A stretch of 22,015 nucleotides of DNA from a virus. Made by a program: the position numbers and the translations under genes. Shown piece after piece: positions 12,874 to 16,540 of this stretch. Each line of letters begins with the position of its first letter. The first letter of the stretch is position 1. The notes under the pieces were generated by a model. The model did no database searches, was not told the DNA's origin, and worked only from the letters and a program-made list of their open reading frames with translations. Location of the stretch: positions 1 through 22,015 of the IMG/VR virus record IMGVR_UViG_3300028844_000968. One strand, given 5' to 3'.

Positions 12874-12893
12874 ACTTTGCCCTCAAGGAAATA

Positions 12894-12919
12894 GTGGGGC
12901 ATCCCGAAGGACACCCCAC
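12894..12919 (-). terminator. Stem-loop terminator after the capsid gene (UUCG loop)
   Basis: Eleven bases downstream of the capsid stop, the minus strand can fold GTGGGGTGTCC-TTCG-GGATGCCCCAC. That is an 11-bp stem, with two G-U pairs, closed by a UUCG tetraloop. It is followed by TATTTCCTT rather than a clean U-run, so termination is probably partial. T7 places its main terminator at the equivalent point after gene 10. An RNase-processing or mRNA 3'-stabilising role is the alternative. Confidence 0.72.
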
Positions 12920-12929
12920 CGTACGACGG

Positions 12930-13793
12930 TTAGTAGGTCGCTTGTACCTCTACGACTTTTTCTTCCTCGATGCGTGTAGCCTGGGCAGAGAAAGCCATGT
13001 ACACCTGCGTGGCGTATGACTTATCTGCTCGGTCATCGATGCGAGTAGAAACGTCGGCTCCAATAGCAAGACCGATACCAGACTGGCAGAACGCCAGGCA
13101 CTTACGGAAGTTCGTTCCGCTTGTGTCCACGTTTAACTGCTCACTTCTAATAAAACGGAATCCACAGAAGTCCGAAAGTTCACCTTTTGCCAACGCCTTG
13201 ACGGTGTTGTAGTCGGAACTTTTTACTTCCGTGGTGTTCAGAAGATCGGTGAGTTCACCGGAACCAATCACCATGTACATCGGATCGGCTTCTTCATCCA
13301 CATCGTTAGCCAAAAGAATCTCGCGTGCAGCAAGAATCTTTGCAACGGTCATACCGCCGGACGCATGAACAACTTTGTTACCTGCGGGAAGCGCAACACT
13401 AGCACCGTCACCATCAGTCGCAGCAGCAGTCGCTGCATCGATGATGAGTTTGTCCCAACGACGACCCATTGCATACGCACCCGTCTTGGCATACTCAGAC
13501 TGCGGAGAGATCAGGAGACGAATCTTGTCTTCCTGGTCAATCATGTCAGCCCACTGCCAATCCTTTAGCGTGACAACACGTCGTGAATGTGGAACATCAA
13601 GTACGGGCGTGTCGGTGTGGCGAGTTGTTTTCTCCACACTGTCCATCGCGCCGATGCGCTCGAAGTTATGTTTCTCACCAGTTACGGTTTCATTTCGCAC
13701 GGCATCTTTAAGACGACTACCGCGCTGTTGTGCAAGATGCACGACATTCGATTTGAATTGCTCAACGAATGCCTTTGAGATGGTATTAGCCAT
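12930..13793 (-). CDS. Major capsid protein
   Basis: This 287-residue protein lies between scaffold and tail tube A, the capsid slot of T7-like genomes. It starts with MANTISKAFVEQFKSNVVHLAQQRGSRL and includes RRVVTLKDWQWADMIDQEDKIRLL (about 71-94). YAKTGAYAMGRRWDKLIIDAATA (about 101-123) resembles the HK97-fold spine-helix region of the compact capsid proteins of non-T7 podophages. The length is below that of T7 gp10A (345 aa). ATG 13793 has a strong SD (GGGAGAG). The gene is flanked by the largest spacer in the window (171 bp upstream) and by a terminator, consistent with the need for high expression. No slippery site for a T7-type gp10B frameshift was found before the stop. Confidence 0.9.
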   Translation of the reverse strand: MANTISKAFVEQFKSNVVHLAQQRGSRLKDAVRNETVTGEKHNFERIGAMDSVEKTTRHTDTPVLDVPHSRRVVTLKDWQWADMIDQEDKIRLLISPQSEYAKTGAYAMGRRWDKLIIDAATAAATDGDGASVALPAGNKVVHASGGMTVAKILAAREILLANDVDEEADPMYMVIGSGELTDLLNTTEVKSSDYNTVKALAKGELSDFCGFRFIRSEQLNVDTSGTNFRKCLAFCQSGIGLAIGADVSTRIDDRADKSYATQVYMAFSAQATRIEEEKVVEVQATY

Positions 13794-13796
13794 TTG

Positions 13797-13837
13797 ACTC
13801 TCCCAAGTTTGTTAAAAAATTAAACCCTTCGGAGAGT
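13797..13837 (-). promoter_or_regulatory. Possible SD-sequestering helix of the capsid mRNA
   Basis: The capsid SD region GGAGAGT (13803-13797) is perfectly complementary over 7 bases to ACTCTCC (13837-13831). A loop of 27 bases that includes a T6 run separates them. ACTCTCC is also the 3' arm of the upstream stem-loop (13856-13831), so the two pairings are mutually exclusive. This is the layout of a translational switch or thermometer. The complementarity is seen; regulation is inference. Confidence 0.4.
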
Positions 13838-13856
13838 TGCCCTTTCGGACTCGTCC
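13831..13856 (-). promoter_or_regulatory. Capsid leader stem-loop 2 (GAAA loop, GCA bulge)
   Basis: The minus strand folds as GGA-(c)-GAGT-CC-GAAA-GG-(GCA)-ACTC-TCC: 9 pairs, a GNRA tetraloop, a one-base and a three-base bulge. It would sit at the very 5' end of a transcript from the predicted promoter. Its bulged helix is the same as that of stem-loop 1, with the loop at the opposite end. Confidence 0.5.
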
Positions 13857-13860
13857 TACC

Positions 13861-13889
13861 ATTTTACGTCTGGGTTGACGAACAGTTAA
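13861..13889 (-). promoter_or_regulatory. Sigma70-like promoter for the capsid gene
   Basis: On the minus strand a -35-like TTAACT (13889-13884; 4/6 to TTGACA) is followed after 17 bases by TAAAAT (13866-13861; 5/6 to TATAAT). It points toward the capsid start at 13793. The predicted transcript would begin near 13854. It is located in the only large intergenic spacer. No phage-RNAP-type consensus was recognised. Confidence 0.45.
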
Positions 13890-13901
13890 CGATGTCAGCG
13901 C

Positions 13902-13926
13902 GATGGACTCTTGCGAGTTGCCCATC
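13902..13926 (-). promoter_or_regulatory. Scaffold-capsid spacer stem-loop 1 (GCAA loop, GCA bulge)
   Basis: The minus strand folds as GATGG-(GCA)-ACTC-GCAA-GAGT-CCATC: 9 Watson-Crick pairs with a GNRA tetraloop and a 3-base bulge. It lies between the scaffold stop (13965) and the predicted capsid promoter, so only read-through RNA carries it. There is no T-run after it, so a terminator is unlikely; an RNA-processing or protein-binding site is more plausible. Confidence 0.5.
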
Positions 13927-13964
13927 AATATGTGCTTAATAACTCGTCACGCAATCCAATGCAA

Positions 13965-14759
13965 TCATTCTGGATGCGCAATCTCCATCAGTCGCTGCAC
14001 ATGCTCGACTCTTGTCTTGTGATTGGGATGCGACGCATCGTGATACGCATCCTTCAAGTCACCAATGATTCCCATTGCACGCTCACGCGCTTCGCCTGGT
14101 GCAACACCAAACACGTTGCTCGTATCCTTCGCTGCAATTTGTTTCTCACCTAGCATGTCACCAATAGCAACCAACGCTTTAATGAGTAACGGGTTGTCGC
14201 CCATGCCAGGCTCACGCAATGCGTCAGTTAACTTGCCATCGGCTTTGATCTTCTTGTCTAGGAATTTAACTGCCTGACCTGCTTGCTTACCCTTCGACTC
14301 AAACTCTGCGCCCCACTCTTGCTTGAGTTCTTCCATCATGTTGGCAACCTGCACCTGGCGTGACTCTTGACGCTGCTGCTCTTCTCCAACATACGCCCGA
14401 TACAACTGCTGCGCCTGGCTCTTGGTTAGATGGTTCGCATGTGCGACCTGTGCAAACGCAGCATCATCAATGCCGTATTCGTTTATGTCTGAGGGCTTGC
14501 CTAGTTTGGAATACAGGTTGTCCCATCCTTGCTCGTCTTCTTCTCCAGGCATCATCGCAATGCCAGGCACGCTTGATAGTTTGTCTTTGAACTGATCCCA
14601 TTGCCCTTGTTCTGCGTCTTCGGATGGGATGCGTATGCTGCCACCGATCATGCTTTCCGCATTGGTATATCCTTTAGCCAGGTCTTCTACTGTCTCGAAC
14701 TTCTCGACCTGATGGTGCATGTCTTCCGGTAATCCTGCATACCACTTTTCTTCAGCCAT
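13965..14759 (-). CDS. Scaffolding / capsid assembly protein (T7 gp9-like)
   Basis: This 264-residue, acidic, Glu/Gln/Lys-rich protein lies between portal and capsid. The N-terminus (WYAGLPEDMHHQVEKFETVEDLAKGYTNAESMIGGSIRIP, about 6-45) is the recognisable start of capsid assembly proteins in marine T7-like phages. The middle is helical and the C-terminus (HKTRVEHVQRLMEIAHPE) is a basic helix of the kind that contacts the capsid shell in scaffolds. It directs procapsid assembly and leaves before DNA packaging. ATG 14759 overlaps the preceding small gene by 8 bases; T7 gp9 is about 307 aa. Confidence 0.88.
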   Translation of the reverse strand: MAEEKWYAGLPEDMHHQVEKFETVEDLAKGYTNAESMIGGSIRIPSEDAEQGQWDQFKDKLSSVPGIAMMPGEEDEQGWDNLYSKLGKPSDINEYGIDDAAFAQVAHANHLTKSQAQQLYRAYVGEEQQRQESRQVQVANMMEELKQEWGAEFESKGKQAGQAVKFLDKKIKADGKLTDALREPGMGDNPLLIKALVAIGDMLGEKQIAAKDTSNVFGVAPGEARERAMGIIGDLKDAYHDASHPNHKTRVEHVQRLMEIAHPE

Positions 14760-14958
14760 TTTTTGCCTCGTCTGAGTTTGATAGATTGATTAACATGTTG
14801 ACCATGTGCGACATACCAAGTCGGTATGCCGTTTCATGGGTATCGCCTTGCACATAATTACTACGGTCTACATAACAGTTCTTTAATTCGTTGAGTAAGT
14901 CCTGACCGGACTGATTACGAAATGTTAAAGAAGCCAACTCACTGATCTTGTCCGGCAC
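14752..14958 (-). CDS. Small conserved protein between portal and scaffold (68 aa)
   Basis: The start is GTG 14958, supported by a strong SD (GGAGG, 6 bases upstream). It overlaps the end of the portal gene by 20 bases and the scaffold start by 8. The sequence is polar, with YVDRSNYVQGDTHETAYRLG (about 29-48) followed by an amphipathic helix SHMVNMLINL (about 50-59). A small gene with this kind of sequence at this place is common in marine podoviruses; I do not know its function. It was kept because of the SD, the tight coupling and the absence of another frame explaining this interval. Confidence 0.7.
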   Translation of the reverse strand: MPDKISELASLTFRNQSGQDLLNELKNCYVDRSNYVQGDTHETAYRLGMSHMVNMLINLSNSDEAKNG

Positions 14959-16540
14959 TCTCTGCCTCCGCTTGTTGTTGCATCATCATCTGTTGCTGCT
15001 GTTGTTGCTGCTGCATGCGTTGAGCGCGTGCCTCTTGCATCTCGTCTGCACCTTTGCGTACGTCAGCAGGGACACCGTGTCGGTCTGCAAGTTTTATTGC
15101 TACCTTATCGAAGTCGATAGCGTCCAAGATTTCTGGATTGAGTTGCGCCATTTGACTAAGCGAACCCACCCATCGTTCGATTGCTTGCACGTCACCCATC
15201 TTCTGAGCGCGTGCCAGGGGTGACACATACTCGATGTCCAGTTCCCCGCCTTGATAGGCGATCACGGACTCAGGTGGTTCTGGGAATTGCATCGCTCGAT
15301 ACATCATGTAGAACACACGCTCGACCATTGGCGTGAGCAGTTCAGATTGCAGTCGTCCAAGCGTTGCACCCAACAGGCGCTGCATCATCTCGTATCGAAT
15401 CTGCACCTCAGTTGCTGTCGCATTAGGTCGATCAGGTAACTCAAGTTGATCTGAATAGAACATCATGCGAATCGATTGACGTAACTCCGCTGACTTAATC
15501 TGAGACACGTCCCATCGTGTACCGTTCTCAAGCACACGCAGTTCACCCATCTCACGCATTAACGTCAGACCGCCTGGCTCCAAGTGCAGATCACCAATTA
15601 TTGCGTTGCGTCCTGCCATGTACGGTGGGTCGATGGACTTTTCCCATCCCGTTAACTCAAGACGCTTCGCTTCATTCAGCGTCGTGATGTCTGCCCTGGC
15701 AATCAAGCCAGGTGAATAACCCCAGGCTTCGCCCGATGTCTTCGACCAACGTGGAATGAAGTACGGCAGTTCGTAGTACCCGCCCTCCTCAATGATCGCT
15801 TGATCCTCCAGGGAGATGTACTTCTCCATGAACGGTCTATCCTGCGGGACTTTCATGTCGTTGTCTGGGTACGATCTATCGGTACTTGGAGAGACACAGT
15901 GCAGGAACTTAAACATCTGATCGGGGTTCTTGTTTAACGCTGCCGTAACCTTTGGCATGTCAGCGTCTTGCCATCGCTCCGATGCTGCACGCGCTGTTAA
16001 CTCAAAACATCGATACACGGTATCAACCTTTCCGGATGCTGACTCGCTGATACATAGATCAGACAAGTGAACCGTATCGAAACGCAAACCACCGAACGCT
16101 GTCGGTGCGTTACCTTCTTCCAAGAACAAGCAGCCAGTACCGAATGCTCCCAGGTCAAGGTACAACTCGTTGACCTGCGTATTAAAGTTGCTCTCACCTA
16201 ACGCATCGAACATGCGATCCGTGCATTCTTCTAGCCACTCGTTTGCTGCGTCATCTTCAGCAAGTTCTGTATCTCTAAATCGAACAGAGAACCAGGGCGA
16301 TGCAGGTGACGTTAACGCCATGTGCAGTGATGCTGCCAGGACGTTGTTCGCATGTATCGCTGTGCTGTCGTATATCTTCTCGGTTCTTGATCGATCCCCT
16401 TTTGATCTCTGCGTCACGAAGTCTGCACGGTTGGGCATGACATACATTGCCACGTCTTCCCAATCCCGATCCCAATTAGATCGAGCAGCCTTGAGTGATT
16501 CGTAACGCTTTACGATTTGCTCTACGGAACCCGAAGCCAT
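14939..16540 (-). CDS. Portal / head-tail connector protein (T7 gp8-like)
   Basis: This 533-residue protein matches T7 gp8 in length (536 aa) and opening: SNWDRDWEDVAMYVMPNRADF (about 21-41), STAIHANNVLAASLHMALTSP (about 59-79) and SPWFSVRFRD (about 81-90). PDRPNATATEVQIRYEMMQRLLGATLGRLQSELLTPMVERVF (about 371-412) is the conserved stem/wing region of gp8-type connectors. It forms the dodecameric ring at the packaging vertex, and docks TerL, the internal core and the tail adaptor. The C-terminus (509-523) is a Gln/Met tract, unusual for the family. ATG 16540 overlaps the previous stop by one base (TAATG). Confidence 0.95.
   Translation of the reverse strand: MASGSVEQIVKRYESLKAARSNWDRDWEDVAMYVMPNRADFVTQRSKGDRSRTEKIYDSTAIHANNVLAASLHMALTSPASPWFSVRFRDTELAEDDAANEWLEECTDRMFDALGESNFNTQVNELYLDLGAFGTGCLFLEEGNAPTAFGGLRFDTVHLSDLCISESASGKVDTVYRCFELTARAASERWQDADMPKVTAALNKNPDQMFKFLHCVSPSTDRSYPDNDMKVPQDRPFMEKYISLEDQAIIEEGGYYELPYFIPRWSKTSGEAWGYSPGLIARADITTLNEAKRLELTGWEKSIDPPYMAGRNAIIGDLHLEPGGLTLMREMGELRVLENGTRWDVSQIKSAELRQSIRMMFYSDQLELPDRPNATATEVQIRYEMMQRLLGATLGRLQSELLTPMVERVFYMMYRAMQFPEPPESVIAYQGGELDIEYVSPLARAQKMGDVQAIERWVGSLSQMAQLNPEILDAIDFDKVAIKLADRHGVPADVRKGADEMQEARAQRMQQQQQQQQMMMQQQAEAESAGQDQ
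14972..15013 (-). repeat. Poly-Gln/Met tract at the portal C-terminus
   Basis: Residues 510-523 of the portal read eight Gln, three Met, three Gln, encoded by mixed CAA/CAG codons with three ATG codons between. The tract is a near-trinucleotide repeat and may vary in length. Confidence 0.75.

Follow-up and report, generated by a model that had tools for sequence, protein, structure and literature searches.

A stretch of phage DNA upstream of a capsid gene raises the question of whether two small hairpins in it are real RNA structures and what role such structures could play. The stretch analysed, referred to here as the window, is 22,015 nucleotides long (IMG/VR virus record IMGVR_UViG_3300028844_000968, positions 1 to 22,015) and represents the late region of a Pelagibacter-HTVC010P-like podovirus. 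A sequence-only reading had noticed two stem-loops with one bulged helix in permuted order, and had suggested an autoregulatory binding site for a capsid, scaffold or portal protein.

The capsid gene and its neighbours

All features of the window described here lie on the minus strand, where the gene order is portal (14939-16540), a scaffold-like gene (13965-14759), a 171-nt spacer, the capsid gene (12930-13793), and more late genes. The spacer is the 5' leader of the major capsid gene, whose 287-aa product is assigned to PF19821 (Phage_capsid_2; E 2.7e-85) and phrog_3437; the named phages among its nearest relatives include the Pelagibacter phages Baldr (55%) and HTVC010P (51%). The gene upstream of the spacer encodes a capsid assembly or scaffold-like protein of 264 aa (phrog_3742), and a 'capsid assembly protein' holds the same position in Baldr. 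In the database entries OQ414635 and OQ414636 (Pelagibacter phages Hodr and Baldr), the locus tags look swapped, Baldr genes being tagged EXVC031PHodr and vice versa.

Directly 3' of the capsid gene lies a terminator-like hairpin with a poor U tract (12893-12920). A survey made without shuffle control showed one in 18 of 115 cases, the window included, which suggests that the capsid gene can be its own transcription unit in some phages. It is also seen in the group of L005, L054, L057, and L060.

Anatomy and folding of the two hairpins

The nine-mer GGGCAACTC occurs at 13834-13842 and 13915-13923 and nowhere else in the virus record, and GAGTCC lies at 13847-13852 and 13905-13910, exactly where the sequence-only reading had placed them; both stem-loops can be drawn as it claimed, and both loops are GNRA. 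Stem-loop 1 (SL1), GATGG-[GCA]-ACTC-GCAA-GAGT-CCATC, lies inside 13901-13927 and has its long side (GCAA) on the 5' strand; covariation supports an outer stem GATGG/CCATC and an inner stem CTC/GAG capped by GCAA, and an adjoining U-A pair is also possible. Stem-loop 2 (SL2), GAGT-CC-GAAA-GG-[GCA]-ACTC at 13834-13852, has its long side (GCAA) on the 3' strand and is extended by GGA/TCC to 13831-13856. Between the two stands a middle hairpin, CGTC-AACCCA-GACG (13867-13880), which shows a compensatory change from U-A to C-G in one of six relatives. Next comes a UAAAAUGG/UUAAAUGC-like stretch that, by eye, is shared by several lineages. An A/U-rich linker (13807-13830) leads from SL2 to GGGAG (13800-13804), the Shine-Dalgarno sequence of the capsid gene. 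The 3' arm of SL2, CUCUCC (13831-13836), is complementary to the Shine-Dalgarno region and is predicted to pair with GGGAGAG (P > 0.99); this pairing and SL2 are mutually exclusive.

The 171-nt spacer is more stable than dinucleotide shuffles of it (z -2.93; 1 of 200 equally good), and its minimum-energy fold contains neither SL1 nor SL2. When the RNA is assumed to start at about 13929, SL1 forms (outer helix P = 0.995) and the 3' arm of SL2 prefers the Shine-Dalgarno sequence in the predicted fold. Folding energy alone could therefore not decide whether the hairpins are real, and recurrence in relatives did: the two stem-loops are real and exceed chance, and the proof is their recurrence in other phages, folding energy aside. 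A covariance model built from 15 SL2-type hairpins of other phages, trained without the window, gave SL2 of the window as its top match in the 22 kb (17.5 bits, E 0.036; next E 1.9). At E <= 0.001, the model returned no match from the virus record of the window, because one 22-nt hairpin reaches only E 0.036. No intrinsic terminator, that is, a G+C-rich hairpin followed by a U run, was found at SL1 or SL2 in a terminator scan of the window.

Recurrence in the capsid leaders of other phages

Capsid-gene neighbourhoods were collected from viral contigs (39, 80, 27, and 80 loci, overlapping) and from 18 named phages. After removal of 13 viral loci whose upstream DNA was too short and of L040 and L041, which are additional copies of the window, the sample consisted of 222 spacers of at most 220 nt each, which reduction by shared 12-mers brought to 120 representatives.

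When the scan was tied to the flanking G-C pair, the motif hairpin turned up on the mRNA strand of 97 of the 120 distinct capsid leaders. None of the 120 reverse complements had it, and among neighbouring stretches, coding or upstream, the count was 0-3 of 109-120. The element is therefore an RNA of the capsid sense strand and is local to the leader. Unrestricted enumeration of hairpins with a 1x4 loop recovered the motif in 92 of the 120 representatives, compared with 3-6 of 120 in each of ten dinucleotide shuffles. An element of the DNA itself, such as a cruciform or an operator, or a set of chance repeats might be suspected, since a promoter lies nearby in part of the family; both are extremely improbable. 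The strand test rules out symmetry at the DNA level, the stems pass through G-U intermediates on the mRNA strand, and chance is ruled out by the recurrence and strand tests together. The module is absent by scan from the remaining 23 leaders, which means that it is either dispensable or too divergent there.

In six complete phage genomes, the strict scan placed the module at the capsid leader of ZP6, Baldr, YeP5, HTVC010P, and MW202510, with other matches scattered; it was not evident before the early operons of the six. The K300 leader has none at the strict cut-off, its hairpins having fewer pairs; the covariance model ranks this leader first, but that hairpin is part of the training set. 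The hosts of phages carrying the module are as different as Pelagibacter, Alteromonas, Vibrio, and Yersinia. The module is part of a conserved leader RNA of capsid genes in a widespread group of phages, and one that is apparently undescribed.

Pattern searches of viral contigs that were blind to protein content led to the same genes. The pattern GGTTTCCC..GGAYAAAAACC had 98 matches, 92 with a capsid-family start downstream; among the other six, four look like chance matches in other genes and two repeat one of these. For GTGGAYAACC..GGCCCAC there were at least 120 matches, and among the 120 listed, 117 were accompanied by the capsid family and 3 had less than 400 nt downstream. GAGTCCGNRAGGGTAGCTC likewise had at least 120 matches; among the 120 listed, 114 were accompanied by the capsid family, 3 were too short, and 3 (L637, L649, and L680) had a scaffold-like gene immediately after the module. 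The L649 gene encodes 257 aa and is followed by a different head protein (phrog_9953), and the portal is also different (phrog_156), which makes binding by this particular capsid protein one option among others. In these three loci (in L649 the region from 4927 to about 5300, minus strand), the module is accompanied by a small frame of 38 aa, seen by eye, and, further upstream, by a terminator-like hairpin. A fourth pattern, P2, was rejected as too loose: among the 120 listed of at least 120 matches, 20 were accompanied by a capsid gene, and of the other 100 a few held a module-like hairpin and the rest read as chance. Since the three protein-blind patterns find capsid genes in 94-98% of the matches listed, the module is a compact marker of capsid leaders in metagenomes. 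The scan of 84,980 cellular genomes covered one form of the module, GAGTCCGNRAGGGTAGCTC, and gave two matches: one inside reading frames, and one in a phage, on a contig filed under a Sneathiella MAG, again with the capsid family.

Covariation of the stems

The sequence-only reading had named covariation, and loss of the helices in close relatives, as the observations that would speak for and against it. In the window group (A3, six sequences), the helices are kept: 95.8% of the cells are paired, and both partners have changed in 4 of 20 pairs. The both-side changes are distributed over the outer stem of SL1 (two, exchanging G-C with A-U and U-A with C-G), its inner stem (one, C-G with U-A), and the middle hairpin (one); SL2 shows one-side changes and some unpaired cells, with no both-side change. 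A second group (A2, 21 sequences) has both-side changes in 7 of 25 pairs, those of an extra helix around SL1 included, and G-U intermediates on the mRNA strand. Both-side cells number 7 in A3, compared with 2.2 in shuffles (0/500), and 15 in A2, compared with 3.6 (0/500); related sequences can exceed shuffles, and slid-partner controls are far lower in both groups. The A4 hairpins were picked for pairing, so their pair counts are not independent proof. With compensatory changes beyond both shuffles and slid controls, the leader is a conserved structured RNA.

The internal loop

Where the sequence-only reading had described one helix with a three-base GCA bulge in both hairpins, the constant part across the family is a 1x4 internal loop. 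In the consensus module, one pyrimidine (U or C) stands opposite R-Y-A-R/C, with a G-C pair flanking the loop, and the GCA of the window is the form with U opposite GCAA. In the unrestricted enumeration, the most frequent loops have C opposite AUAA, U opposite GUAG, or C opposite ACAA; whichever strand carries the long side, those with AUAA and ACAA rank close to the top. A G-C pair flanks the loop in 97 representatives, and the other three pairs account for 15, 4, and 2.

The first position of the long side was counted with all four letters allowed on each side and with the long strand read as N-Y-A-N after the G-C pair. The partner of A is C in 89 cases and U in 3, and that of G is U in 33 cases and C in 2. 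The G.U and A+.C wobbles are isosteric, and as the Watson-Crick partners are avoided, the loop looks like a case of isosteric wobble covariation under apparent selection for wobble geometry. Position 2 is U or C in 122 cases and A or G in 14 (when A follows), and position 3 is almost always A. An exception is L001, a near-identical relative of the window, with G instead of Y at position 2 of the SL1 loop; by eye, L013 and L015 have C opposite GCAA. Both loop classes occur within one leader in L118, L230, L233, L234, and L049, so they look equivalent to one binder. The GNRA caps are common in the family but not required.

Copy number and orientation

The permuted order of the two hairpins is a feature of the family as well as of the window. 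With A denoting a long side on the 5' strand and B one on the 3' strand, the 97 leaders fall, under the strict scan, into AB (19, the arrangement of the window), BB (27), single A (24), single B (22), AAB (3), ABAB (1), and BA (1). The duplicated RNA site that the sequence-only reading had placed upstream of the capsid gene is borne out in this sense: at least two modules are found in 51 of the 97 leaders (60 of 120 at a relaxed cut), and a single one in 46. In the window, SL1 alone passes the strict cut; SL2 fails it because it has five Watson-Crick pairs without the GGA/TCC extension. A nearly fixed loop within covarying stems, duplicated and swapped in orientation, looks like a recognised RNA site.

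Position relative to promoter and start codon

At the start of the spacer, a weak candidate promoter, TTGCAT-17-TATTAA (13936-13964), can be inferred; it has 7 of 12 consensus bases and is missing from the list of a consensus promoter scan of the window, and by eye its position and spacing are kept in L003 and L005. In the family, a sigma-70 promoter with at least 9 of 12 consensus bases ends 3-16 nt before hairpin 1 in 17 of 79 leaders, compared with 2.4 (maximum 6) in shuffles, and one with at least 10 of 12 lies before hairpin 1 in 10 of 79, compared with 0.24. The distance from the -10 box to hairpin 1 is mostly 11-12 nt in relatives with strong promoters; wherever the promoter is good, the mRNA would therefore have just a few nucleotides ahead of hairpin 1.

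Such a position is what one would find if the leader stabilised the 5' end of the mRNA and enhanced translation by way of the host's general machinery (avoidance of RNase E/RppH, ribosome standby), in the manner of the T7 gene 10 and ompA leaders. The A/U-rich linker and the Shine-Dalgarno sequence that come next and the terminator-like hairpin that closes the gene in some phages also fit. A 5' hairpin can protect, however, without any fixed internal loop, whereas nothing in the module is more constant than this loop and its wobble; the second copy, moreover, lies far from the 5' end. We regard this explanation as doubtful.

The last recognised hairpin ends at least 28 nt before the AUG in all 97 leaders, which keeps the site clear of the Shine-Dalgarno sequence and the start codon. 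In about half of the leaders it ends at -28 to -46, and in the rest further upstream, which is in part an effect of the strict cut, since the second hairpin often does not pass it. The competition between SL2 and Shine-Dalgarno pairing seen in the window has a similar predicted potential in L003, L005, and L006, and anti-Shine-Dalgarno stretches stand mid-leader in other phages. This would suit a switch operated by a ligand or by temperature, without protein, that toggles between SL2 and the helix blocking the Shine-Dalgarno sequence. But the pairing is not general in the family (mean P 0.68 in 56 leaders, compared with 0.63 in shuffles), and complementarity to a GAG-rich Shine-Dalgarno sequence partly follows from the GAG/CTC stem itself; a switch of this kind is quite unlikely. 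General sequestration of the Shine-Dalgarno sequence was likewise rejected, being strong in the window group with no trend across the family. The leaders of L060, L063, L168, and L166 share a conserved mid-leader AUCUCG that may pair over a long range with the Shine-Dalgarno region, to which it is complementary; by eye, L168 has a change that matches.

Proposed function

The reading that we prefer, at a probability of roughly 45%, is that of a cis-acting structured 5' leader of the capsid mRNA whose modules bind a factor and so tune capsid synthesis. The module probably helps control the amount of shell protein made. A trans-acting factor, most likely a late or assembly protein of the phage, would dock on each module; with two sites it could bind cooperatively or as a bridge and so adjust the translation of the capsid gene and the lifetime of the mRNA. 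In the window lineage, where SL2 and the Shine-Dalgarno sequence compete for CUCUCC, the start site would be freed by a factor that holds SL2 and shut once SL2 is lost; because the two helices exclude each other, binding to SL2 would be an ON signal there.

A factor-binding leader agrees with a nearly fixed loop in freely varying stems, with up to two copies, with two wobble classes that can replace each other, and with an element found in phage capsid modules and rare in cellular genomes. The promoter just ahead of hairpin 1 in part of the family, the terminator-like hairpin after the capsid gene in some phages, and the competition between SL2 and the Shine-Dalgarno sequence in the window group also count in its favour. 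Against it stand the distance of at least 28 nt between hairpin and AUG, which is far for simple steric repression, as well as the lack of general Shine-Dalgarno pairing, the 23 leaders without the module, the loop exception in L001, and the 46 leaders with a single module. The partner may be a phage assembly protein or universal host machinery; the spread of hosts and the cases before a scaffold-like gene fit both, and confinement to capsid modules favours a phage protein. Binding of the capsid protein to the hairpins is a plausible proposal.

A bolder and only tentative proposal is that we are dealing with a new RNA-recognition module, a 1x4 loop with an interchangeable G.U/A+.C wobble followed by Y-A-R/C, present in up to two copies in the capsid leaders of a very abundant group of marine podoviruses and also ahead of a scaffold-like gene in phages with another head family. 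By way of this module, a phage factor would couple capsid synthesis to virion assembly. A defined conserved leader offers a handle on how such phages set their capsid supply, and the wobble-plus-Y-A-R loop is a target for structural and binding studies.

Comparison with known RNA elements

Rfam 15 gave no match in the window, and no match at or above the gathering score in 20 diverse loci searched at E up to 1. A match to L20_leader in L118 (2242-2375, plus strand; 25.7 bits, gathering 58.7, E 0.86) lies outside the leader and is probably due to chance. The kink-turn, in which a 3-nt bulge is followed by tandem G.A/A.G pairs, and other 3-nt-bulge motifs share with the module a three-base asymmetry in a short helix; here, a G.U or A.C wobble precedes Y-A-R, and the loop table shows Y opposite R-Y-A-N and no GA/AG pair.

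Structured 5' UTR elements of marine phages are represented by manA and wcaG, which, according to the available part of the source, are linked to metabolic genes (PMC2864571); they resemble this leader in kind but precede metabolic genes, whereas here capsid genes follow. Neither was matched in the window or in the 20 loci scanned. In the accessible text of a paper on Pelagibacter RNAs (PMC2704228), a term search showed the words phage, viral, and capsid to be absent. Within the collection searched, titles and the beginnings of abstracts held no report of such a capsid-leader element, and none on scaffold autoregulation that concerned phages. The module, unnamed in Rfam 15 and present in the leaders of hundreds of related phages, is thus apparently undescribed.

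HK022 putRNA, as the available part of its description has it, consists of two irregular stem-loops near the 5' end of phage transcripts, with an RNA triplex and non-canonical pairs of its own, at early-gene sites (PMC9378689). A leader of this type would bind RNA polymerase while nascent, as put does at the beta' zinc-binding domain, and let it pass the terminators of the late operon. Irregular hairpins near the transcript 5' end, which hairpin 1 is in leaders with a good promoter, and the intrinsic-terminator-like hairpin held by the L637, L649, and L680 leaders are in line with this. The triplex and base pairs described for putRNA are, however, unlike the 1x4 loop (PMC9378689), which is repeated here, often in swapped orientation, before capsid genes, in hairpins that are not adjacent. 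No such hairpin was found at the cut-off in HK022 at 24-34 kb. The different anatomy, the terminator-like hairpins after the capsid gene, and the six genomes in which no module was evident before early operons make antitermination unlikely.

In the T7 gene 10 leader, an abundant phage mRNA carries a hairpin close to its 5' end. In the T4 gene 32 leader, the stability is attributed to the CUUCGG hairpin or its tetraloop itself, as cited in the accessible text of PMC8948821. Both share a 5'-end hairpin with the present leader and, as far as those descriptions go, are without a conserved internal loop.

The coat operator of RNA phages (MS2/Qbeta type) is a small irregular hairpin with one bulged A that overlaps the start codon. 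Like the present module, it stands upstream of a phage gene as a site for a virion protein, which for the module is a possibility; unlike it, the module lies at least 28 nt upstream, comes in up to two copies, and belongs to dsDNA phages. If a phage factor does couple capsid synthesis to assembly through this leader, it would be a dsDNA-phage feedback system comparable to the coat operator.
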